DNA from: Syntrophales bacterium
Lineage (GTDB): Bacteria; Desulfobacterota; Desulfobaccia; Desulfobaccales; 0-14-0-80-60-11
DNA: 33,749 bases
Assembly (NCBI GenBank): GCA_028688935.1
Contig: JAQTXE010000005.1
Span: forward strand, 1-33,749
Direction: 5' to 3'
Under the pieces are notes generated by a model. That model was not told where the DNA came from. It ran no database searches and saw only the letters and a program-made list of their open reading frames with translations. Positions 6,961 through 30,955 of the stretch are shown here, piece after piece. Made by a program: the position numbers and the translations under genes. Numbering within the stretch: position 1 is the stretch's first letter; each line of letters opens with the position of its first letter.

Positions 6961-7384
6961 GAGTCAACCTAAAACGGTGGAGTCGGTCGGACTAAACTCT
7001 TTTGCCGGCCGGTATCCGAGCTGACACCCCGGCTGGAGGCTAACCACTCAAAGGTTTACTTGCTGACAACCCCGGCTGCGACCTGGGTAGCTTTAATGGT
7101 CATCTGGCCGGGTGGAATTCCTTTCACCTTTTGAGCTTCCCCTCTATTTTCGCTTGAGTCTCCTCCGAGAAAACCGCTGAGCAAGGATGAATGCCTTTAC
7201 ATTGCAGGCTAATATGTCACTATCTGCTATATCTGTGCCGTTTCAACCAAAATAATCGATATTCTGGATGGTAGTCCTAGCTGGAGTTCAGATCATGCCG
7301 ATTGCCCCGCTCTGCTTAAGTTCCCGGCTTGGAAACCGGAACCGGAAAAGGTCCCCCCACAGTTCGACTTGACCTCCTTGCCCC

Positions 7385-7430
7385 GGAACATTATATTGAC
7401 CTCCAGGGATATCCGGGGAAATAATGTTCC
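7385..7430. repeat. Perfect 10-bp inverted repeat upstream of hydrogenase operon
   Basis: GGAACATTAT and ATAATGTTCC are perfect arms separated by 26 nt, about 40 bp before the hydB start. An overlapping pair CCCCGG/CCGGGG allows an alternative fold. It could be a leader RNA switch or a pair of protein half-sites. Confidence 0.45.
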
Positions 7431-7467
7431 CTGCTGCTATTGCCAGATCCCGGAGGAGAGCCCGGTG

Positions 7468-8676
7468 ATGCGCCCTGCAGCCTCAAACTTGGGGGATGAG
7501 GTGGTCCTGGAGGCCCAGGCCCTCCAACAACTGCTGGAGGTCTTGTCCGGCCGGGGTTATCAAGTGGTGGGCCCCACCTTGCGTCAGGGTTCCCTGGTCT
7601 ATGACCGGCTCTCCTCCCTGGACGATCTCCCCCGGGGCTGGGGGGACCAACAGGAGGGGGGCTTTTTCCGGCTGCGGCCCCTGAACGAGCCGGCCCTGTT
7701 CGGCTACGGGGTGGGGCAGAAATCCTGGAAGGAGTTTCTCTATCCTCCCCGCCGCCGGTTGTGGCCGGCCAGGCAGGAGGCTCATGGCCTCCAGATCCTC
7801 CCCCCCGGCGAAGATGCGGTGAAATTTGCCTTTATCGGCGTCCATCCTTGCGACCTGCACGCCATCGCCGTCCAGGATAAAGTCTTTCTGGAAGGTCCCT
7901 ATCTTGACCTGCATTATCAGGCCCGGCGGCAATCCGCCTTTATCCTGGCGGTGAACTGCGGGCACGCTTGCGGCACCGGTTTCTGCGTCTCCATGGGCAC
8001 CGGCCCCCGGGCTAGTTCCGGTTTTGACCTGGCCCTGACGGAAATTCTGGCAGAGGCGCGGCATTATCTGGTGGTGACCGTGGGCTCGGAAAAGGGGCGG
8101 CAAGTCATCAGCCAACTGCCTCACCGGCGGGCCCAGGCTCAGGAGCTGGAGGCCGCGGCCAAAGTGGTGGCCCAGGCCGCGGGGCAGATGGGGCGGAGCC
8201 TGGATACCACGGAGATCAAGGCCTTACTTTATCGTAACTATGACAATCCCCGTTGGGACCAGGTGGCGGCCCGCTGCCTCACTTGCGGCAACTGCACCCT
8301 GGTCTGCCCCACCTGCTTCTGCCATACCGTTGAAGATACTTCGGGCCTGACGGGCGAGCAGGCGGAGCGCTGGCGGCGCTGGGATGTCTGTTATACCGTG
8401 GATTTTAGCTACCTGCACGGCGGCAGTATCCGGGCCACGCCCCGGTCCCGCTACCGCCAGTGGCTGACCCACAAACTGGCCACCTGGATCGATCAGTTCG
8501 GGGTTTCGGGCTGCGTGGGCTGTGGCCGCTGTATCACCTGGTGTCCGGTGGCCATCGACATTACCGCGGAAGTCCGGGCCATCCGGGAAGGCGAGAGGTC
8601 AGGGGCCAGGGGCCAGGGGCCAGGGGCCAGGGGCCAGGGGGCAGGGATTAGTAAAGGAACGGATAAATCAAATTGA
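7468..8676 (+). CDS. hydB: [NiFe] sulfhydrogenase beta subunit (iron-sulfur; HydB / AsrA-like)
   Basis: A 402-residue iron-sulfur protein related to sulfhydrogenase HydB and anaerobic sulfite reductase subunit A. Two C-terminal ferredoxin-type clusters are visible: [16 protein letters not shown] (from residue 270) and [13 protein letters not shown] (from about residue 348). Together they pass electrons from the FAD subunit towards the hydrogenase core. Two Cys pairs also occur mid-protein ([10 protein letters not shown]). GGAGGAG precedes a GTG/ATG pair; I use the ATG at 7468, and the longer start at 7369 lacks support. The last 25 or so residues are an in-frame (GGGGCCA)n repeat translated as [13 protein letters not shown], absent from the conserved fold. 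It is the first gene of the hydrogenase operon. Confidence 0.88.
8597..8650 (+). repeat. Heptamer tandem repeat (GGGGCCA)n, family C copy 1
   Basis: Five tandem GGGGCCA-type units (AGGGGCC phase) plus degenerate flanks, inside the 3' end of hydB. Related tracts occur on the opposite strand in cbiA (29306-29335) and, degenerate, at 28283-28317. Confidence 0.85.
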
Positions 8677-8757
8677 TCTTTGACCCCCTAATATGTCAAT
8701 TCACCTTCAATTGAAACAAACTGGCAATGTAACTCACTGGGAATGCAGCTTTTTTAA

Positions 8758-8788
8758 CGGAAAACGAAAAACGGAAAACGAAAAACGG
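8758..8788 (-). repeat. Heptamer repeat (TTTTCGG/TTTTCGT)n, family A copy 1
   Basis: CGGAAAACGAAAAACGG repeated, the reverse complement of the TTTTCGGTTTTCGG tracts at 10969 and 27281. It ends at the Shine-Dalgarno of the cNMP-binding gene. Confidence 0.85.
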
Positions 8789-8798
8789 GAGTAACGGC

Positions 8799-9251
8799 AT
8801 GGAGACGCTGGAGCCCGTGTTAGCGGCACACCCTTTTTTACAAGGCCTGGACCCCCGGCATCTGAAGATTATCGGGGAGTGCGCCTCCAAGGTGAATTTC
8901 AGCGCCGGGGAATTTCTTTTCCGGGAGCAGGATGAGGCCACCAATTTCTATCTGATCAATCACGGCCGGGTGGCGGTGGAGATTTTCCGGGCCCGCCGGG
9001 GTCCCGTCAACGTGCAAACCCTGAGGGAAGGTGAGGCCGTGGGCTGGCTCTGGTTCGGAAAGCCCTACCACTGGCACTTCGACGCCCGGGCCGTCCAGCT
9101 TACCCGGGCCCTGGCCCTGGACGTCAAATCCCTGATGCAAAGATGTGATCAAGACCCCCAGTTGGGCTACGAGCTGATGAAGAGATACGCCCACATGCTG
9201 GCGGTGCAGTTCCGGGTGGCTATTTTGCAACTAGGTGATATGTATGGATGA
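8799..9251 (+). CDS. Stand-alone cyclic-nucleotide-binding-domain protein in hydrogenase operon
   Basis: A 150-residue protein consisting of a cNMP-binding (Crp-type) beta-roll only. FLQGLDPRHLKIIGECASKV opens the domain, then FSAGEFLFREQDEATNFYLI and the GRVAVE turn. LREGEAVGW stands where the phosphate-binding cassette (GE...) is expected, but the usual R-A/S-A motif is replaced by a Trp/His-rich stretch (FGKPYHWHF), so nucleotide binding may be altered. No DNA-binding helix-turn-helix follows, so it is not a classical Crp/Fnr regulator. It lies between the beta and gamma genes, in the same direction, with GGGAG 6 nt before ATG. A regulatory or structural subunit of the hydrogenase is inferred. 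Confidence 0.8.
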   Translation: METLEPVLAAHPFLQGLDPRHLKIIGECASKVNFSAGEFLFREQDEATNFYLINHGRVAVEIFRARRGPVNVQTLREGEAVGWLWFGKPYHWHFDARAVQLTRALALDVKSLMQRCDQDPQLGYELMKRYAHMLAVQFRVAILQLGDMYG

Positions 9252-9253
9252 TT

Positions 9254-9319
9254 AGCTGCCAGCGGTCAGCTTATTTTTTGGGTTTTATGTTTTTAGCTGA
9301 AAGCTGACCGCTGATAGCT
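9254..9319. repeat. 19-bp inverted repeat of AGCTGAC type, family B copy 1
   Basis: AGCTGCCAGCGGTCAGCTT (9254-9272) and AAGCTGACCGCTGATAGCT (9301-9319) pair at 17 of 19 positions around a T-rich 28-nt loop. The same words recur at 12418-12467 and 16472-16506. It fills the spacer between the cNMP gene and hydG. Confidence 0.85.
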
Positions 9320-9339
9320 TTCTTTCAAGATCGATAAAT

Positions 9340-10179
9340 ATGTGTAGCCAACTTACCGACCCCATGCTGCCGACTCCCTATCAGGTCCTGAAAAGGGTCC
9401 GGGAAACCAAGGACACCTTTACCCTGACCTTGGCTCCGGTTAAGGGCGGGCAGGGTTTTCCTTTTGCCCCCGGCCAGTTCAATATGCTCTATATCTTCGG
9501 CGTGGGGGAAGTGCCCATCTCCATCAGCGGCGACCCGGACCGGCCGGAGAAGCTGGTGCATACAGTCAGGGCCGTGGGCGCGGTGAGCCGGGCTATCTGC
9601 GGTCTGAAGAAAGGGGACACCCTGGGGGTGCGGGGCCCCTACGGCGTGCCCTGGCCGGTTAAAGCCGCGCCGGGCTATGACGTGTTGGTGATCGCCGGGG
9701 GCTTGGGATTGGCTCCGGTGCGGCCCGCGGTTTACCATCTATTGGCCCGCCGCCCGGAGTATGGCAACCTGGAACTTATTTACGGGGCCCGCACCCCGGA
9801 AGACTTGGTCTATCGCCGGGAACTGTCGCTTTGGCGGGGGCGCTTCGATTTCCGGGTGCACGTCACCGTGGACGCGGCCCGCAATGGCTGGCGGGGCAAC
9901 GTGGGGGTGGTGCCCAATCTCATTGCCCGGGCCCGGTTCGACCCGGAGCAGACCATGGCCCTGGTCTGCGGCCCCGGGGTGATGATGCGCTTCACGGTCC
10001 AGGAGCTGGTGAACCGGGGACTGAAGATGGAAAACATCTACGTCTCCCTGGAGCGGAACATGAAATGCGGCCTGGGCCTCTGCGGCCACTGCCAGTTAGG
10101 GCCCTTTTTCGTCTGCAAGGACGGGCCAGTCTTCCCCTATGACCGGGTCCGGGACTGGTTCCTGATGCGGGAGGTTTAA
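9340..10179 (+). CDS. hydG: [NiFe] sulfhydrogenase gamma subunit, FAD/NAD(P)-binding (HydG / AsrB-like)
   Basis: A 279-residue flavoprotein of the ferredoxin-NADP reductase fold. An N-terminal FAD barrel ([20 protein letters not shown]) is followed by an NAD(P) domain with [16 protein letters not shown] and CGPGVMMRF. The C-terminus carries a [2Fe-2S] motif, [17 protein letters not shown], spaced C-x4-C-x2-C-x7-C. This is the domain order of HydG and of dihydroorotate-dehydrogenase electron-transfer subunits. By family knowledge it exchanges electrons with NAD(P)H. The ATG at 9340 lacks a good Shine-Dalgarno, and Met9 (9364) is an alternative. The hydD gene starts 1 nt after its stop, indicating tight coupling of the two products. 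Confidence 0.9.
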
Positions 10180-10180
10180 C

Positions 10181-10963
10181 ATGCCCCGGAAAAGACGCCC
10201 CAAGCTGGCGGTGTGGAAATTCGCCTCCTGCGACGGCTGCCAGTTGTCCTTGCTGGATTGCGAAGACGAACTGCTGACCATCGCCGGGGAGCTGGAGATC
10301 TCCTACTTCGTGGAGGCCTCGAAAGCGGTGGTCAAAGGCCCCTACGATATTTCCCTGGTGGAGGGCTCCATTGCCGCGCCCCACGACCTGGAGCGCATTC
10401 AGCACGTGCGGCAAATTTCCAAATTCGTTATGCCCATCGGCGCCTGCGCCACCGCCGGGGGCATCCAGGGGCTGCGCAATTTCGCTAAGGTGGAAAATTA
10501 TATCCCCCTGGTCTATGCCCGCCCCCAAGTTATCGAGGCCCTGGAGACCTCCACTCCCATCTCCGCCCATGTGCCGGTGGACTTTGAGCTCCAGGGCTGC
10601 CCCATCAACAAGCGGCAGCTGGTGGAGGTGGTGAGCGCCCTGCTCCAGGGGCGCAAACCCGTGGTCTCGCCCCACAGCGTCTGCATGGAATGTAAAATGC
10701 GGGGAAATATCTGCGTGCAGGTGGCCTTGGGGATTCCCTGTCTGGGGCCGGTGACCCACGCGGGCTGCGGCGCCATCTGCCCCACTTATCAGCGTGGCTG
10801 TTACGGCTGCTATGGACCCAAGGAGACGCCCAACACCGCGTCCTTGAGCGCCTGGTTCAGCCAGCGCCTGGGGGTGACGGAGCCCGAACTGCTGCGGCTC
10901 TTCCGCACCTTCAACGCCGGGGCCGAACCCTTCCGCCAGGAGAGCGAGGCCCATGACCACTGA
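10181..10963 (+). CDS. hydD: [NiFe] sulfhydrogenase delta (small) subunit HydD
   Basis: A 260-residue small subunit of a group 3 [NiFe] hydrogenase, related to the 20-kDa subunit of complex I. The proximal cluster motif [12 protein letters not shown] (Cys near 18 and 21), the GACATAGG segment and a Cys-rich C-terminus ([14 protein letters not shown], then [19 protein letters not shown]) are visible, consistent with three [4Fe-4S] clusters. It lacks a Tat signal, so it is cytoplasmic. GGAGG lies 6 nt before the ATG. A 139-nt gap with two repeat elements separates it from its partner, the large-subunit gene. Confidence 0.93.
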
Positions 10964-10968
10964 AAGAC

Positions 10969-10999
10969 GGTTTTCGGTTTTCAGTTTTCGGTTTTCGGT
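10969..10999 (+). repeat. Heptamer repeat (TTTTCGG)n, family A copy 2
   Basis: GGTTTTCGGTTTTCAG followed by TTTTCGGTTTTCGG, in the hydD-hydA spacer directly after the hydD stop codon. Confidence 0.85.
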
Positions 11000-11033
11000 A
11001 AAGGGCGGCAGAGAGAAATTTATAAGCATTTGA

Positions 11034-11071
11034 AAATCCCCCTAAATCCCCCTTTAGGAAAGGGGGACTTT
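11034..11071. repeat. CCCCCTAAAT-type element with hairpin, family D copy 1
   Basis: AAATCCCCCTAAATCCCCC is followed by TTTAGGAAAGGGGGA. CCCCCTTT-AGG-AAAGGGGG can form an 8-bp hairpin. The same words recur at 28422-28505. It lies between hydD and hydA and could attenuate or process the operon mRNA. Confidence 0.8.
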
Positions 11072-11102
11072 AACACCGGCTGCGGCAAACCCCGGTTGAG
11101 AA

Positions 11103-12413
11103 ATGATCATGCCATCTAAAGGACAAAATACCAGAACCATCAAGGTGGACTACCTGGCCCGGGTGGAGGGGGAAGGCGCCCTGCATATCAAGATCAAGGA
11201 GGGCGCAGTGGCCGGGATGCAACTCCAGATCTGGGAGCCCCCCCGCTTTTTCGAGGCCTTCTTAAGGGGCCGCTATTTCACCGAGGCCCCGGACATCACC
11301 GCCCGCATCTGCGGTATCTGCCCGGTGGCCTACCAGATGAGTTCCGTGCACGCCCTGGAAGACGCCCTGGGGGTGCAGGTGGATGGACCTTTAAGGGCGC
11401 TGCGGCGCCTGATCTATTGCGGGGAGTGGATCGAAAGCCACGCCCTGCACCTCTTCATGCTCCACGCCCCGGATTTTTTGGGGTACGACGACTCCCTGCG
11501 GATGGCCCGGGACCACCCGGAATTGGTGAAGATGGGCCTGCAATTGAAAAAGGTGGGCAACCAGTTGGTGGCCCTGGTGGGGGGCCGGGAGATCCACCCC
11601 ATCAACGTGCGGGTGGGGGGCTTTTATCGGGTGCCCACCAAGGCTGAACTGGCGCCCCTGGCAGAGCGCCTCAAGTGGGCCCGGGACGCGGCGGTCAAGA
11701 CTGTGGCCTGGGTGGGGGGCTTTACTTTTCCCGACCACGAGATGGACTATGAATTCGTGGCCCTGCGCCACCCGGACGAATACCCCTTCAATGCCGGCCG
11801 TCTGGTGTCCAACCGGGGCCTGGACCTTGAGGTTAGGGATTACGAGGAGCATTTCCAGGAAGAGCACATCCCCTATACCCATGCCCTCCATTCGGTGCTG
11901 CAAGGCCGGGGAGCTTATTTTGTTGGTCCTTTGGCCCGCTATAACCTCAACTTTGACCGCCTCCCACCCCTGGCCCAGGAGGCCGCTAGGCAAGCGGGCC
12001 TGGGGCCGGTGTGTTCGAATCCCTTTCAGAGCATCATTGTTAGGGCCGTGGAAATCCTTCATGCGGTGGATGAAGCCCTGCGCTTGATTGAGAGTTACGA
12101 GATGCCGGACGCTCCTGCGGTGAAACTGGAGGTCCGGGCCGGGGCAGGATGCGGCTGCACCGAAGCCCCCCGGGGGATCTTATATCACCGCTACCGCTTG
12201 GATGAGGCGGGACTGATCCAGGAAGCGAAGATCGTCCCCCCCACTTCCCAGAACCAGAAGAGCATCGAGGAGGACCTGCGGCGATTTGTCACCGGCCACC
12301 TGGACCTGCCCCAGGATCAGCTCACCTGGCAATGCGAACAGATGATTCGCAACTATGACCCGTGTATTTCTTGTGCGACGCATTTTTTAAAGTTGAAGCT
12401 GGAAGGCGAGTAA
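11103..12413 (+). CDS. hydA: [NiFe] hydrogenase large (alpha) subunit HydA, group 3b-like
   Basis: A 436-residue catalytic subunit. The two [NiFe]-ligand motifs are intact: [10 protein letters not shown] (Cys70, Cys73) and DPCISCATH (Cys421, Cys424). The nine residues after His427 (FLKLKLEGE) are the C-terminal extension that the maturation protease removes. Length and motifs fit cytoplasmic group 3 enzymes. The gene order beta-gamma-delta-alpha and the NAD(P)-binding gamma subunit point to group 3b (sulfhydrogenase / NADP-linked) rather than F420-linked 3a or heterodisulfide-linked 3c. The start is ATG at 11103 or 11109; neither has a strong Shine-Dalgarno, perhaps because repeats fill the upstream spacer. 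The enzyme interconverts H2 and NAD(P)H, and may reduce polysulfide. Confidence 0.95.
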
Positions 12414-12417
12414 AAGA

Positions 12418-12467
12418 AGCTATCAGCTTAAAAGCTTAAAGGCTGAAAGCTGATCGCTGACAGCTTT
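12418..12467. repeat. AGCTGATAGCT-type dyad, family B copy 2
   Basis: AGCTATCAGCTT and a downstream AAGCTGATCGCTGACAGCTT resemble the arms of the 9254-9319 element. It fills the hydA-protease spacer. Confidence 0.8.
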
Positions 12468-12512: not shown

Positions 12513-12977
12513 ATGAATAAGAATGGTGAGACCTTAATCATCGGCATCGGCAATATCTTCAGGGGCGATGACCTGGCGGGCCTGGCCGCGGCCCGCCTGC
12601 TCCGGGAAGGGCAGCTTCCGGGGGTAAAGGTCCTGGAATTCGACGGAGATATGACCGGGTTGTTGGACGCCTGGGAGGGGGCCGCCAAGGTAATCGTCAT
12701 CGACGCGGTGACTTCCAAGTCGCCGGCGGGCACCATCTTCCGGTTCGACGCCCATGAGCAGCCTCTGCCCCAAAAGATGTTCGCCACCTGCTGCTCTTGC
12801 CACGCCTTCGGGGTGGCCCAGCAGATCGAAATCGCCCGCTCCCTCAAGCAACTGCCGCCTTGTCTCATTGTTTACGGCATTGAAGGGCAAGATTTTACCC
12901 TGGGGTCCAAGCTTTCGCCGGAAGTGGAGCAAGCCCTGCCCCGGTTGGTGGAGCAGGTCCAACAGGAATTGAATTAA
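12513..12977 (+). CDS. [NiFe] hydrogenase maturation protease (HycI/HybD family)
   Basis: A 154-residue endopeptidase of family M52. The opening LIIGIGNIFRGDDLAG, the IDAV segment and SCHAFG supply the three expected nickel-sensing ligands: Asp20, Asp64 and His97 by direct count. By family knowledge it cleaves the C-terminal extension of the large subunit after nickel insertion; the adjacent hydA product has a nine-residue extension for it. The ATG at 12513 has GGAGG about 16 nt upstream, which is far for a ribosome site, yet no better start is in frame. It is the last gene of the operon and faces a minus-strand EF-hand gene. Confidence 0.92.
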   Translation: MNKNGETLIIGIGNIFRGDDLAGLAAARLLREGQLPGVKVLEFDGDMTGLLDAWEGAAKVIVIDAVTSKSPAGTIFRFDAHEQPLPQKMFATCCSCHAFGVAQQIEIARSLKQLPPCLIVYGIEGQDFTLGSKLSPEVEQALPRLVEQVQQELN

Positions 12978-13107: not shown

Positions 13108-13770
13108 TCAAGCGAAGTAGTCCATGCCTTGAAAGTTCTGCGACTCCTGGGAATATTGGGCATAGTAGTCTTTTTCCATGGTCCCCAGCAAATCGAGAAA
13201 TTGGGCCAGCAGCGCCGCCAGGCTGTTGTCCTCGGTGGATGCCGTGGAAGTTTCGGCATCGGTGGCGGCAGCCTCAGAAGTTGAACTGTCGCTGCTTGAG
13301 GCTTCTGCCGTGGTGCTTTCCGTCTGGTTTCCGAGCTCTTCCATGGCCGTCTCATACTCGGACTGGTCAATAACGCCGTCTTCATTGGTGTCCATGGCGG
13401 AGAAAATCTGATCCACCAGATCGGACATCTCGCTGCTCATGTCGGGAGGAGGCGGGGGCGGGCCCATGGGCCTCATGCCGGATCCCTCCATGAGGCTGGC
13501 CATATGCTTTTCCCACTCAGGGCTGGCCTCGGTCTGTTCGGCCTGGGTAATGACCCCATCCTGATTCAGGTCAAAGATGGACATCATTTCATCCGCAGTA
13601 ATGGACAGGCCGGTTTTTTGGGACATATCGCTGGCCGCGGTGGCGCACTCAGAGGAGCTGATCACCCCGTCGCCGTCCTGGTCCATCCGGTTGAACATTT
13701 TTTGCCGCATTTCGGTTAAGGAAGGCAGGTTACATCCGCCGCCACAACCGCCAATTCCTCCAATGCTCAT
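13108..13770 (-). CDS. EF-hand calcium-binding protein
   Basis: A 220-residue protein with three canonical 12-residue EF-hand loops: DQDGDGVISSSE (30-41), DLNQDGVITQAE (67-78) and DTNEDGVIDQSE (127-138). A Gly/Cys-rich start (GGIGGCGGGCN), a poly-Pro linker (PMGPPPPPPD near 102-110) and a Ser/Thr/Ala-rich low-complexity stretch (about 150-180) surround them. There is no signal peptide or membrane helix. GGAGAGG lies just before the ATG. Calcium binding is strongly indicated; the partner and purpose are unknown. The pairing of loops suggests that EF1 and EF2 form one lobe and that EF3 lies with a degenerate or missing fourth hand. It is monocistronic, convergent with the hydrogenase operon. 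Confidence 0.88.
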   Translation of the reverse strand: MSIGGIGGCGGGCNLPSLTEMRQKMFNRMDQDGDGVISSSECATAASDMSQKTGLSITADEMMSIFDLNQDGVITQAEQTEASPEWEKHMASLMEGSGMRPMGPPPPPPDMSSEMSDLVDQIFSAMDTNEDGVIDQSEYETAMEELGNQTESTTAEASSSDSSTSEAAATDAETSTASTEDNSLAALLAQFLDLLGTMEKDYYAQYSQESQNFQGMDYFA

Positions 13771-24675: not shown

Positions 24676-24971
24676 TAAACACCTCCAACAATGATTTTAT
24701 ATGCCGGTTGCCGAAAGTTTTTTCCGCCCCCCCTCACCCTGACCCTCTCCCCCCGCCGGGGGGAGAGGGAATAAGAGGAAAGAACTTTTGGCAAATGCTA
24801 TAAAAGTCCCCGAAAGGGGAGGCAATATCGGCCTGTATAGCAGAAATAAGGGGAATTGTATATTTTTATAAATCCATCTTCCCAAGGAATTAATAACTGC
24901 GCATTATCAGCGCCGGGAACCGAAAATCGGATAAAGTTGACAGCCGCGCCATTTCTTTATATGCTTTACCA
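24676..24971. other. 296-bp intergenic region upstream of the cobalamin riboswitch
   Basis: No ORF is supported. It holds the family E repeat at 24726-24770 and an AT-rich stretch (24850-24900) that should carry the promoter of the riboswitch-controlled operon. Confidence 0.55.
24726..24770. repeat. CCCTCACCCTGACCCTCTCC element with hairpin, family E copy 1
   Basis: CCCTCACCCTGACCCTCTCC is followed by CCCCGCCGGGGGGAGAGGG. CCCTCTCCCCC and GGGGGAGAGGG form a strong hairpin. Related elements are at 27354-27390 and 30153-30193. It lies between divergent genes. Confidence 0.8.
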
Positions 24972-25128
24972 TCCGGGTACCCTTCGGGGTGTAATAGGGA
25001 AGACGGAGAGCCGTCGCGGTCCCGCCGCTGTGACCGGGGACGAAACCTGCAGTGGGCCACTGTACCACTTGAGTGGGATGGGAAGGCGCAGGGAGTAGGA
25101 GGATCCGGGAGCCAGAAGACCTGCCTGG
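24972..25128 (+). ncRNA. Cobalamin (B12) riboswitch
   Basis: The conserved blocks of the cobalamin aptamer occur in order: AATAGGGAA (about 24993), CGCGGTCCCGCCGCTGTGA (about 25015), GGCCACTG (about 25055), ATGGGAAGGCGCAGG (about 25080) and the B12 box GAGCCAGAAGACCTGCC (25109-25125). It precedes a corrinoid transport and biosynthesis operon, as expected. By family knowledge adenosylcobalamin or a related corrinoid binds it and turns expression off. A terminator/antiterminator platform follows (25198-25257). Confidence 0.93.
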
Positions 25129-25197
25129 AGGTCTGGCGTCTTGGCGAGAGACGAGAGGCCCAGACACCGGAGCCGCCCTGGACAAGCGTCTCCTTTC

Positions 25198-28572: not shown

Positions 28573-29994
28573 ATGCGCCAAACCCGAGGATTAGTCATCG
28601 CCGGCACGCAGAGCGGGGTGGGCAAGACCACCATCACCCTGGGGCTGATCGCCGTGCTGCGCCGCCGGGGGCTGACGGTGCAGCCCTTTAAGGTGGGCCC
28701 GGATTTCATCGACCCCGGGCACCACACCCGGGCCGCGGGCCGCATTTCCCGGAACCTGGACGGCTGGATGCTGAGTCAAGAGGCTAATCTATCCCTTTTT
28801 CGCCGCCAGGCCGGGTCCGCCCAGGTGGCGGTGGCGGAGGGGGTGATGGGGCTCTTTGACGGCTATGACGGTATGAGCGAAGCCGGGTCCACCGCCCAGA
28901 TGGCCAAGTGGCTGGGGCTGCCGGTGCTCTTGGTGGTGGATGCCCGCTCTATGGCCCGGAGCGCCGGGGCCCTGGTTCACGGCTTTGCCACCTTTGATCC
29001 GGACCTGGCCCTGGCCGGGGTGGTTTTTAACCGGGTGGGCAGCCCTACGCACTTGCATTATCTGGAGCAGGCCCTGAACGGGCTTGAAGGAATCAAATGC
29101 TTCGGCGGCCTGCCCCGGGAAGGGGAACTAGCCATCCCGGAAAGACATCTGGGCCTCGTAACCTCAGAGGACCATCCCCTGGAGGAGACGCGCTTGGAGT
29201 ATCTGGCCGATTTCCTGGAACAAAACCTGGACCTGGACGGGTTATTGGCGTCGCTGCCGGTTTTATCCTTCCCCCCGGAAACCTTGGTGGATAGCGCTTC
29301 TCCTCCTGGCCCCCGGCCCCTGGCCCCTGGCCCCTCCAGCGTGCGTCTGGGGGTGGCCCGGGACCCGGCCTTTTGTTTTTATTACCAGGAAAACTTGGAA
29401 TTGCTGGCCCATTCCGGGGCCGAACTGGTGCCTTTTTCCCCTTTGGCGGACCGGGAACTGCCGGAAAATCTTGATGGAATCTACCTGGGCGGAGGCTACC
29501 CGGAATTATACGCGGCCCAATTGGCGGCCAATGAAGGCTTGAAGCGCAGCATTGCCGCCCAGGCCGCGGCCGGGCTGCCCATTTATGCGGAATGCGGCGG
29601 CTTGATGTATCTTGCCCAGGAGATCGAGGATCTGGAGGGCCACCCCCACCCCCTGGCCGGAGTGCTGCCCCTACAGGTGCGCATGCTGCCCCGGCTCAAG
29701 ACCCTGGGCTACCGGGAAATCACCCTGGCGGCCTCCGGCCTCTTGGGGCCGGCGGGGACCAAGGCCCGGGGGCATGAATTTCATTACTCGGAAATTACCA
29801 CCATAGATGGCAACCTGTCCCGGCTCTACCAAATCACGGCCAGGCAGGGCGGAGAAGCGGTACCGGAAGGCTACTCTATTAAAAATGTTTTGGCCAGCTA
29901 CGTCCACCTCCATTTCGGCAGCAACCCGGAAGTGGCCCGGCAGTTAGTAGGCAGGTGCCTTGATTATAAGTTGAAAGCGGCAAAAGTCGCGTAA
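28573..29994 (+). CDS. cbiA: Cobyrinate a,c-diamide synthase CbiA
   Basis: A 473-residue amidotransferase. The N-terminal ATPase domain (IAGTQSGVGKTTITLGLIAV P-loop, FKVGPDFIDPGHH, NLDGWML) activates the corrin carboxylates. The C-terminal class I glutaminase-like domain has the catalytic Cys341 in YAECGGLMYLAQE and a late His in KARGHEFHYSEI. It makes cobyrinate a,c-diamide in the anaerobic B12 pathway. The linker between the domains (about residues 240-258) is PPGPRPLAPGPSS, translated from a (GGCCCCT)n repeat like that in hydB. I use ATG 28573; the TTG one codon earlier is also possible. No clear Shine-Dalgarno is visible. Confidence 0.94.
   Translation: MRQTRGLVIAGTQSGVGKTTITLGLIAVLRRRGLTVQPFKVGPDFIDPGHHTRAAGRISRNLDGWMLSQEANLSLFRRQAGSAQVAVAEGVMGLFDGYDGMSEAGSTAQMAKWLGLPVLLVVDARSMARSAGALVHGFATFDPDLALAGVVFNRVGSPTHLHYLEQALNGLEGIKCFGGLPREGELAIPERHLGLVTSEDHPLEETRLEYLADFLEQNLDLDGLLASLPVLSFPPETLVDSASPPGPRPLAPGPSSVRLGVARDPAFCFYYQENLELLAHSGAELVPFSPLADRELPENLDGIYLGGGYPELYAAQLAANEGLKRSIAAQAAAGLPIYAECGGLMYLAQEIEDLEGHPHPLAGVLPLQVRMLPRLKTLGYREITLAASGLLGPAGTKARGHEFHYSEITTIDGNLSRLYQITARQGGEAVPEGYSIKNVLASYVHLHFGSNPEVARQLVGRCLDYKLKAAKVA
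29306..29335 (-). repeat. (GGCCCCT)n tract inside the cbiA linker, family C copy 2
   Basis: CTGGCCCCCGGCCCCTGGCC then CCTGGCCCCT, the reverse complement of the heptamer tract in hydB (8597-8650). It is in frame and encodes PGPRPLAPGPS between the two CbiA domains. Confidence 0.85.
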
Positions 29995-30006
29995 AGAGAC
30001 TTGGGG

Positions 30007-30076
30007 TAAATGGGAAAAAGGTAAAGGGGAAAAGGTAAGAAGGAAAAAAATAAGGTAAAAAGGGAAAAGATAAGCC
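30007..30076 (+). repeat. Polypurine tract of GGGAAAAGGTAA-type units, family I
   Basis: Repeated variants of GGGAAAAAGGTAAAGGGGAA over 70 bases, almost free of C. It could form unusual DNA structure or act as a ribosome/polymerase pause region. A reverse-complement-like stretch (TTCCTCTTTTTCCCTTTT) lies at 30251. Confidence 0.7.
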
Positions 30077-30129
30077 TCTTTCAAAATTCTTCGTTTCCCT
30101 AAGAAGTTTCCTGAAGAATTGTTTTTTTG

Positions 30130-30153
30130 CGGGAGCGAAGCGACCGAAGAATC
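30130..30153. repeat. GGGAGCGAAGCGACCGAAGAATC element, family H-like
   Basis: It contains GAGCGAAGCGACCGAAGAAT, a recurrent intergenic-type word related in style to the 28334-28361 element. Confidence 0.6.
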
Positions 30154-30193
30154 CCCTCCCCTTTTGAGGGGGGAGGGTTAGGGTGGGGGTGGT
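30153..30193. repeat. CCCCTCCCCTTTTGAGGGGGGAGG element, family E copy 3
   Basis: CCCTCCCCTTTTGAGGGGGG then AGGGTTAGGGTGGGGGTGG, the mirror orientation of the 24726-24770 element, with its own hairpin (CCTCCCCTTTTGAGGGG). Confidence 0.8.
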
Positions 30194-30316
30194 GTCTTTT
30201 GGGCTGATTACAGATAGTTAGCCAGGTCGCCCCCCTATCCAATTATCATTTCTTCCTCTTTTTCCCTTTTCGCCCCCCGGGTTAAAGTCGGCCTCATCAA
30301 CAAGAGAGGAATTTAA

Positions 30317-30955
30317 ATGACTTGGCAACCACGCCTCCCCCAGGAGATCGAGGCGGAGAGTTTCCGCCGCATCGACGCCCAGGTGGGGGCCCATGATTTT
30401 TCTAGCCTGGTCTGGCCCGTAGTGCGGCGCATGATTCACACCACCGGCGACCTGGGTTACTTGCAGACGGTGCGGGTGCACCCCGAGGCTGTCGCCGCCG
30501 GGGTGGCGGCCCTGCGCCGGGGCGCGGTGGTGGGCACGGACACGCGGATGCTCCTGGCGGGCATCTCCACGGGCCGCCTGAGCCGCCTGGGAGTGGAGCC
30601 GTTTTGTCTCCTGGATGATCCGGAGGTGGCTGAAGCCGCGGCCCGCCAGGAAACCACCCGCACCGCCGCGGGCCTGGAACTGGCCCTGCCCCGCCTGGCC
30701 GGAGGCATCGTCGCCATCGGCAATGCACCCACGGCCTTGTTAAGGCTCCTGGAGTTGCTGGCTGCCGGGGCCCCGCCCCCGGCCCTGGTGGTGGGGCTGC
30801 CCGTGGGCTTTGTCAATGCCGCGGAGTCCAAAGAAGCGCTGACGCAGCAGAACTGTCCTTTTATCACGTCTTTGGGACCTAAAGGAGGCTCGGCCGTGGC
30901 CGCGGCCGTGATTAATGCCCTGGCCGTCTCGGCCCTGAAGGAGATGGACTCATGA
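30317..30955 (+). CDS. cbiC: Cobalt-precorrin-8 methylmutase CbiC
   Basis: A 212-residue CbiC/CobH-family enzyme. The conserved start IEAESFRRIDAQVG, the catalytic histidine region VVRRMIHTTGD (His41), the substrate segment GTDTRMLLAGI and the end VGLPVGFVNAAESKEAL are all present. It moves a methyl group from C-11 to C-12, giving cobyrinate. GAGAGG lies 7 nt before the ATG. The stop overlaps the next gene start by 4 nt (ATGA), so translation is coupled to cbiL. Preceded by a repeat-filled 322-bp spacer, yet oriented and placed as part of the cbi operon. Confidence 0.95.
   Translation: MTWQPRLPQEIEAESFRRIDAQVGAHDFSSLVWPVVRRMIHTTGDLGYLQTVRVHPEAVAAGVAALRRGAVVGTDTRMLLAGISTGRLSRLGVEPFCLLDDPEVAEAAARQETTRTAAGLELALPRLAGGIVAIGNAPTALLRLLELLAAGAPPPALVVGLPVGFVNAAESKEALTQQNCPFITSLGPKGGSAVAAAVINALAVSALKEMDS

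Follow-up and report, generated by a model that had tools for sequence, protein, structure and literature searches.

A hydrogenase operon in a Syntrophales bacterium raises the question of why four of its five gene junctions carry dispersed repeats of different families. The operon lies on contig JAQTXE010000005.1 (assembly GCA_028688935.1), of which positions 1 to 33,749 were analysed as one stretch, here called the window, and its gene order is hydB, a cyclic-nucleotide (cNMP)-binding protein gene, hydG, hydD, hydA and a maturation protease gene, with identities confirmed by NCBIfam and Pfam. An earlier note on this DNA had described the repeats as filling these junctions and had suggested that they insert preferentially at operon seams, or that they act on the mRNA, as spacers or processing sites, to give the correct subunit ratio. 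We favour, at a probability of roughly 0.75, the reading that the hyd-junction tracts are copies of several small non-coding dispersed repeat families, independent of one another and specific to their lineages, and not a hydrogenase-specific device. The operon contains the following genes and tracts.

7369-8676, plus strand: hydB-like iron-sulfur subunit (sulfhydrogenase beta / AsrA-like), from profile matches and its open reading frame (ORF)
8599-8646, plus strand: (GGGGCCA)n tract, 6.7 units, within the hydB ORF, from sequence
8756-8788, minus strand: (TTTTCNG)n tract in the hydB-cNMP junction, plus strand reading AACGGAAAACGAAA
8799-9251, plus strand: cyclic-nucleotide-binding-domain protein, from profile matches
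9254-9319, plus strand: AGCTGA element in the cNMP-hydG junction, from sequence and folding
9340-10179, plus strand: hydG-like flavin/NAD(P)-binding subunit, from profile matches
10181-10963, plus strand: hydD-like small subunit, from profile matches
10953-11033, plus strand: remnant of the ancestral hydA start, 26 codons, frame read from sequence
10968-10999, plus strand: (CGGTTTT)n tract, 4.6 units, in the hydD-hydA junction, from sequence
11034-11067, plus strand: CCCCCTAAATCCCCC / CCCCCTAAATCCCCCTTTAGGAAAGGGGG hairpin in the hydD-hydA junction, member of the 39-copy CCCCCTAAAT family, from sequence and folding
11103-12413, plus strand: hydA-like NiFe hydrogenase large subunit with a new start, from profile matches and comparison with relatives
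about 12418-12466, plus strand: short AGCTGA element (dyad smaller than that at 9254-9319) in the hydA-protease junction, folding z -2.4
12513-12977, plus strand: hydrogenase maturation protease, from profile matches

The 1-nt hydG-hydD spacer is free of repeats, as the earlier note had stated, and the other four junctions do carry dispersed repeats, but the (GGGGCCA)n tract that it had counted between hydB and the cNMP gene lies inside the hydB ORF and is not intergenic. Together with the sequence 3' of it, this tract encodes the C-terminal ~26 residues of hydB, a GARGQGPG-type tail. It matches a G-quadruplex pattern and is analogous, as a G-rich heptamer tract, to the GGGAATC G-quadruplex heptamers of Xanthomonas and Nostoc, although those are numerous and intergenic whereas GGGGCCA is rare in this genome and sits within an ORF (PMC4692102). 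The (TTTTCNG)n tract stops ~10 nt short of the cNMP gene. The AGCTGA element behind that gene begins 2 nt past its stop codon and consists of a left arm AGCTGCCAGCGGTCAGCT (9254-9271), an AT-rich loop and a right arm AGCTGAAAGCTGACCGCTGATAGCT (9295-9319), with a predicted fold of -30.9 kcal/mol (z -5.5); the left end of the short element in the hydA-protease junction lies 4 nt past the hydA stop. A tract and a hairpin are likewise present at the hydD-hydA junction, but they were not inserted between two separate genes, because the (CGGTTTT)n tract, 4 nt past the hydD stop, starts at codon 6 of an ancestral hydA frame. This old frame opens with the ATG at 10953 (ATG ACC ACT GAA AGA), continues into the TTTTCGG tract and ends at a TGA stop (11031-11033), and hydA restarts at 11103 with the new N-terminus MIMPSKGQN.

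The clean state of these junctions is observed directly in relatives. Whole or partial operons were compared in about 20 of them (five congeners plus about 15 further species within the order), where repeat-free spacers measure 3-5 nt between hydB and the cNMP gene, 5-27 nt between the cNMP gene and hydG (5 nt in the relative labelled G006, which has no AGCTGA element there), 1 nt or an overlap between hydG and hydD, and 4-14 nt between hydA and the protease gene. The start of hydA falls within the 3' end of hydD in 18 of 20 relatives (G006 among them), an overlap that the repeats in the window break, leaving a 139-nt junction. The fillers change as well: the hydG-hydD junction is empty in the window, but G001 and G005 fill it with GTTCAAG heptamers, G003 with CGCAAAG octamers and G006 with a CCCTCACCCC hairpin. 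An insertion between hydB and the cNMP gene is common to the window, G003 and G005, and GGGGCCA-related tracts occur in G003 and G005 and are absent from G001 and G006. The hyd-junction repeats thus come and go between sister species and are not fixed parts of the operon. A control syntenic block (14-33 kb of the window, compared in G001, G002 and G006) showed the same turnover where genes do not overlap and none where they do. Within the 29994-30317 junction of the window, a degenerate (GGTAAAGGGAAAAA)n repeat occupies 30005-30074, and a related AAAAGGGG array stands at the same site in G002.

Strict patterns were counted over all 384 contigs of the assembly (3.94 Mb), with reversed patterns as controls. 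AGCTGA, TTTTCGG, CCCCCTAAAT and GGGGCCA yielded 86, 122, 39 and 18 matches, against 0, 2, 0 and 0 for the controls; the first three families occur genome-wide, but GGGGCCA is, by its short motif, not an intergenic family (8 coding versus 3 intergenic copies in the sampled part of the genome). Exact tandems have a period of 7 in 29 cases and of 14 (2x7) in 13, with at most three for any other period from 4 to 15 and none in shuffles. Junction occupancy was measured for 12 repeat families in 763 kb (81 pieces, namely 80 stretches plus the window; 19% of the genome) with genes called by our own script. Counted per intergenic class, 87/473 co-directional (18%), 13/59 convergent (22%) and 10/57 divergent junctions (18%) were occupied, versus 2-3% after shuffling, so that there is no operon excess (P=0.69); what remains of the suggested preference for operon seams is that AGCTGA elements sit in very tight seams, behind stop codons. 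The density of AGCTGA, TTTTCGG and GTTCAAG is 41-77 times higher in intergenic than in coding DNA. Given the co-directional rate across the genome, four occupied junctions of five is an upper-tail outcome (nominal P about 0.004), though this run was chosen after the fact, and a sample of this size should contain about one of its kind. With strict patterns, occupied neighbouring junctions showed no clustering (8 versus 7.4 expected), and terminator and promoter scans gave counts no higher than in shuffles.

AGCTGA heptamers form the arms of inverted-pair elements, in which AGCT-NTCAGC-NNTCAGC...TCAGCT is followed by an AT-bordered loop of 16-254 bp and by AGCTGANN-GCTGANN...AGCT. One and the same polarity is seen in all 11 adjacent pairs of the sample, and an inverted partner lies within 300 bp upstream in 29 of 38 tracts and downstream in none, which is the terminal-inverted-repeat arrangement of a MITE. 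Of the 30 full elements in this genome with gene context, 23 lie in co-directional, 4 in convergent and 3 in divergent junctions. Eighteen of the 23 co-directional elements begin no more than 10 nt past the upstream stop codon, where random placement in the same junctions would give 10.2, and each of the four convergent elements fills its gap, reaching to within 0-5 nt of the stops on both sides. Once the element is removed, the residual spacer at AGCTGA junctions has a median of 27 nt, compared with 111 nt (P=0.003) in co-directional gaps of the ordinary kind, or 511 nt when these are weighted by length (no resample as small). The stops concerned are TGA, TAG and TAA alike; the arms, read inward, hold no stop codon, and the stops therefore pre-exist the elements. 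The preference of AGCTGA is thus for a position behind stop codons, convergent genes included, and not for operons as such. TTTTCGG tracts abut stops more weakly (14 of 39 stop sides within 15 nt versus 4.8 expected), and the GTTCAAG, CCCCCTAAAT and CGCAAAG families do not abut them.

Elements between convergent genes have a further layer of structure. All four contain CACAGAG/CGCAGAG octamers as a second inverted pair, together with a hairpin at the centre, for example GGGCCCTTGGCGC-AAA-GCGCCAAGGGC, and so does 1 of the 26 others (P=0.0002). The convergent gene pairs separated only by such a nested palindrome, ~200 bp long and of three layers (GCTGA arms, CACAGAG arms and the central hairpin), are at these loci:

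L107, 5540-5735
L117, 4303-4506
L299, 2544-2747
L300, 2992-3187

One convergent element forms a single 196-nt hairpin with a predicted energy of -132 kcal/mol (z -14). At two orthologous convergent loci, congeners hold the composite, a single arm (G001) or a 12-nt remnant AAGCTGTCAGCT between the stops (G004), so that these elements are old at their sites, decaying and dispensable.

The family extends far beyond this order. The exact 20-mer AGCTGAAAGCTGACCGCTGA, searched in a GTDB-based collection of 257 Gb, was found in at least 117 contigs from at least 12 phyla, where about 0.5 chance match is expected by our own arithmetic. Carriers, grouped by record titles, include Desulfobacterota, Planctomycetota, Chloroflexota, Cyanobacteria, Nitrospirota, Acidobacteriota and Calditrichota, as well as Bacteroidota, Rhodothermota (a complete genome), Methylomirabilota, Elusimicrobiota, Bacillota and Betaproteobacteria. 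Two matching loci are in the complete genome of a cultured carrier, Roseithermus sacchariphilus. Most are records of metagenome-assembled genomes (MAGs) and single ones may be mis-binned, but the broad spread and the complete genome make mis-binning unlikely as a general cause. The inverted partner was upstream of 66 of 118 tracts and downstream of 2, mostly with the same arm polarity, and in 32 of 64 testable elements an ORF of 100 codons or more had its stop at -8 to +12 nt from an end, against a background of 7.8% for random positions and 14% in non-ORF DNA. Copy number is patchy within the family and order (none to >200 strict matches per genome), and a plasmid search returned one weak match. 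One MAG, 'bacterium isolate 2_bin.9', accounts for many AGCTGA-armed elements in both orientations (L124, L131, L144, L147, L154, L162, L179, L190, L195); these have a GC-rich 88-89-bp loop of their own and look like a high-copy burst of one element.

Small dispersed elements tolerated at seams, with the AGCTGA family placed or kept behind stop codons, are the most likely account of these observations. The repeat families, mostly of 7-bp units and in AGCTGA built as inverted heptamer arms around a loop, turn over, on this account, at all seams of the genome where genes do not overlap, and would be seen at seams because copies within genes are purged and because AGCTGA, and more weakly TTTTCGG, settles or is kept behind stops. 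The stretch right behind a stop may be the only free one in a tight operon. In the hyd operon the main predicted effect is longer spacers and replacement of the ancestral hydD-hydA overlap, so that hydA would now need its own start. The repeats presumably spread by some transposition or recombination route, and their effect may be largely neutral or mildly regulatory.

Several observations weigh against this account. Mobility of the repeats was not observed, and no transposase was recognised between distant AGCTGA arms in the examined stretches of this genome and the 117 loci; C89, C265 and C289 in this genome and 20 arm pairs elsewhere enclose what look like ordinary genes. No direct flanking repeat of at least 3 nt, as sought for a target-site duplication, was found at any of 28 AGCTGA elements (0.5 expected by chance). 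Broad patterns gave marginal clustering of adjacent occupied junctions (25 versus 18.4, P=0.048), and the genome-wide gene calls rest on a home-made caller applied to 19% of the genome. Purging of coding insertions alone also leaves unexplained why AGCTGA elements avoid long spacers and fill convergent gaps exactly, which points to a targeting rule or a function.

By analogy with REPs, an effect exerted after the stop codon is the best functional rival. AGCTGA elements might then be 3'-end modules kept by selection behind stops, with a stem that slows ribosomes or protects the mRNA end and, between convergent genes, a two-way 3'-end or terminator structure. Stop abutment in this genome and across phyla agrees with this, as do the nested CACAGAG arms and central hairpins confined almost wholly to convergent elements, the stability of the 196-nt fold, the element or its traces at two orthologous convergent junctions in several congeners, and the finding that REPs less than 16 nt from the stop codon lower translation in E. 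coli (PMC12306157). On the other hand, re-paired folding showed that an element's own arms pair no better than arms exchanged between elements, so that an RNA stem tuned by compensatory change is not supported; unit dinucleotides gave a weak excess of arm co-evolution at a one-unit offset and a deficit in the symmetric register. The stems are not followed by a strong U-tract, and orthologous sites have lost part or all of the element (G004 retains 12 nt and G001 one arm, and G006 has none between the cNMP gene and hydG). We hold this selected function to be possible, at odds well short of even. Equally tentative is the broader proposal that AGCTGA is a single trans-phylum class of stop-abutting hairpins whose layout follows gene orientation, with plain loops between co-directional genes and nested palindromes filling convergent gaps, and whose members would be portable 3'-end modules spreading without a recognised carrier.

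Formation in place by simple-sequence slippage, as heptamer microsatellites with no mobility, is unlikely for the tracts as a whole. The dominant 7-bp period fits it, slippage has been proposed as the source of heptamer over-representation (PMC4692102), and it is plausible for the almost pure GGGGCCA tract. Neighbouring AGCTGA units, however, share the same variable dinucleotide in only 17 of 150 cases, below the 17.5% expected by chance, and are thus not copies of each other, which counts against slippage, as do the inverted arms and the identical 20-mer in at least 12 phyla.

Slightly less probable still is that the repeats are REP/REPIN elements moved by RAYT tyrosine transposases. Most repeat-bearing relatives have RAYT-like Y1 genes, and the inverted pairs resemble REP doublets; like REP, BIME and REPIN sequences, AGCTGA elements are small dispersed hairpins in a two-copy inverted layout, many within 15 nt of a stop (PMC3733652, PMC12306157). 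They differ from these in their tandem heptamer arms, their loops of 3-254 bp and the want of an AGCTGA-flanked RAYT gene, and a GTAG/CGTC tag was not noticed by eye, without a systematic scan, in the 28 elements, whose ends are AGCT heptamer arms (PMC3733652, PMC12306157). Among 17 Y1/RAYT regions, AGCTGA units were nearby in none, a TTTTCGG tract in three, and other REP-like palindromes in opposite orientation in six; RAYT genes are flanked by GCGAGACGCC or TAGGGTGCGT palindromes and never by AGCTGA, and several genomes with Y1 matches have zero AGCTGA or TTTTCGG copies. The GCGAGACGCC and TAGGGTGCGT palindromes, mostly on both sides of the gene, are genuine REP-type families of the genus that also occur in the hyd junctions of relatives. 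The RAYT-like Y1 regions that carry them are:

L061, 2415-2449
L265, 733-1220
L269, 820-1362
L271, 938-1558
L272, 832-1448
L274, 1023-1509

The proposal that the repeats space or process hydrogenase mRNA for the right subunit ratio, to which four occupied junctions and the strong hairpin at 9254-9319 had lent appeal, is very improbable, because most relatives have clean junctions, every junction has a clean or overlapping state among them, different families occupy the same one, the insertion breaks the hydD-hydA overlap, and unrelated syntenic genes undergo the same turnover, so that the hyd operon is not special.

A search of the literature with the exact repeat sequences led to no paper recognised as describing them, but the repeats have known kin. 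The paired hepta- and octanucleotide 'global regulator binding sites' of Geobacter metallireducens (classes 1-3), which the paper regards as confined to that genome and as conjectural IHF/HU targets, resemble AGCTGA in being dispersed opposite-strand pairs of 3-5 tandem 7-8-bp units at variable distance, and the class 3 consensus MTYCTGA has a CTGA core in common with the AGCTGA arms, a comparison made by description (PMC2700814). By its opposite-strand pairs of tandem 7-8-mers AGCTGA would, by description, fall within that class; unlike AGCTGA, these sites are not reported in the main text, so far as available, to abut stops or to have cross-phylum copies (PMC2700814). Multicopy sequences of G. 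bemidjiensis are also known kin (PMC2996986). The STRR heptamer repeats of cyanobacteria, which in the available part of their description occur in the hupS-hupL gap, are like the hyd-junction repeats in having hairpin-forming 7-bp units between hydrogenase operon genes, and the window families share their many tandem 7-bp copies in intergenic DNA; the same part describes no stop-abutting inverted arms of the AGCTGA kind (PMC2670836). TAACTGA intergenic repeats of Beggiatoaceae, Cyanobacteria and Bacteroidetes are likewise heptamer arrays, patchy over distant phyla, without a known carrier and also found within operons, but they are direct repeats mostly just 5' of start codons, whereas AGCTGA forms mostly inverted pairs just behind stop codons (PMC4679880). 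In the open-access main texts consulted on related repeats, inverted heptamer arms were not found together with stop abutment and cross-phylum identity.

Intergenic heptamer repeats have been noted in cyanobacteria, Geobacter, Beggiatoaceae and Xanthomonas with no agreed function or carrier, and an operon conserved in about 20 species offers a natural set of filled and empty junctions. At this operon heptamer repeats are replaceable, yet AGCTGA keeps a strict position behind stops, also in many other phyla, and through this rule 'intergenic repeat' gains a testable prediction about how translation terminates or how mRNA 3' ends behave. Repeat-filled operon spacers should meanwhile not be taken for operon-specific regulation.

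Rfam covariance models gave zero matches in the hyd junctions, and their sole match in the window was a cobalamin riboswitch (RF00174, 102.8 bits) at 24958-25142, which precedes a gene run at 25.4-33.7 kb with CbiA/CobB-type amidase and CbiC genes. On the minus strand, 13108-13770 encodes an EF-hand protein that is poorly conserved in congeners (53-59%) and matches the XopAW calcium-binding family below the cut-off.

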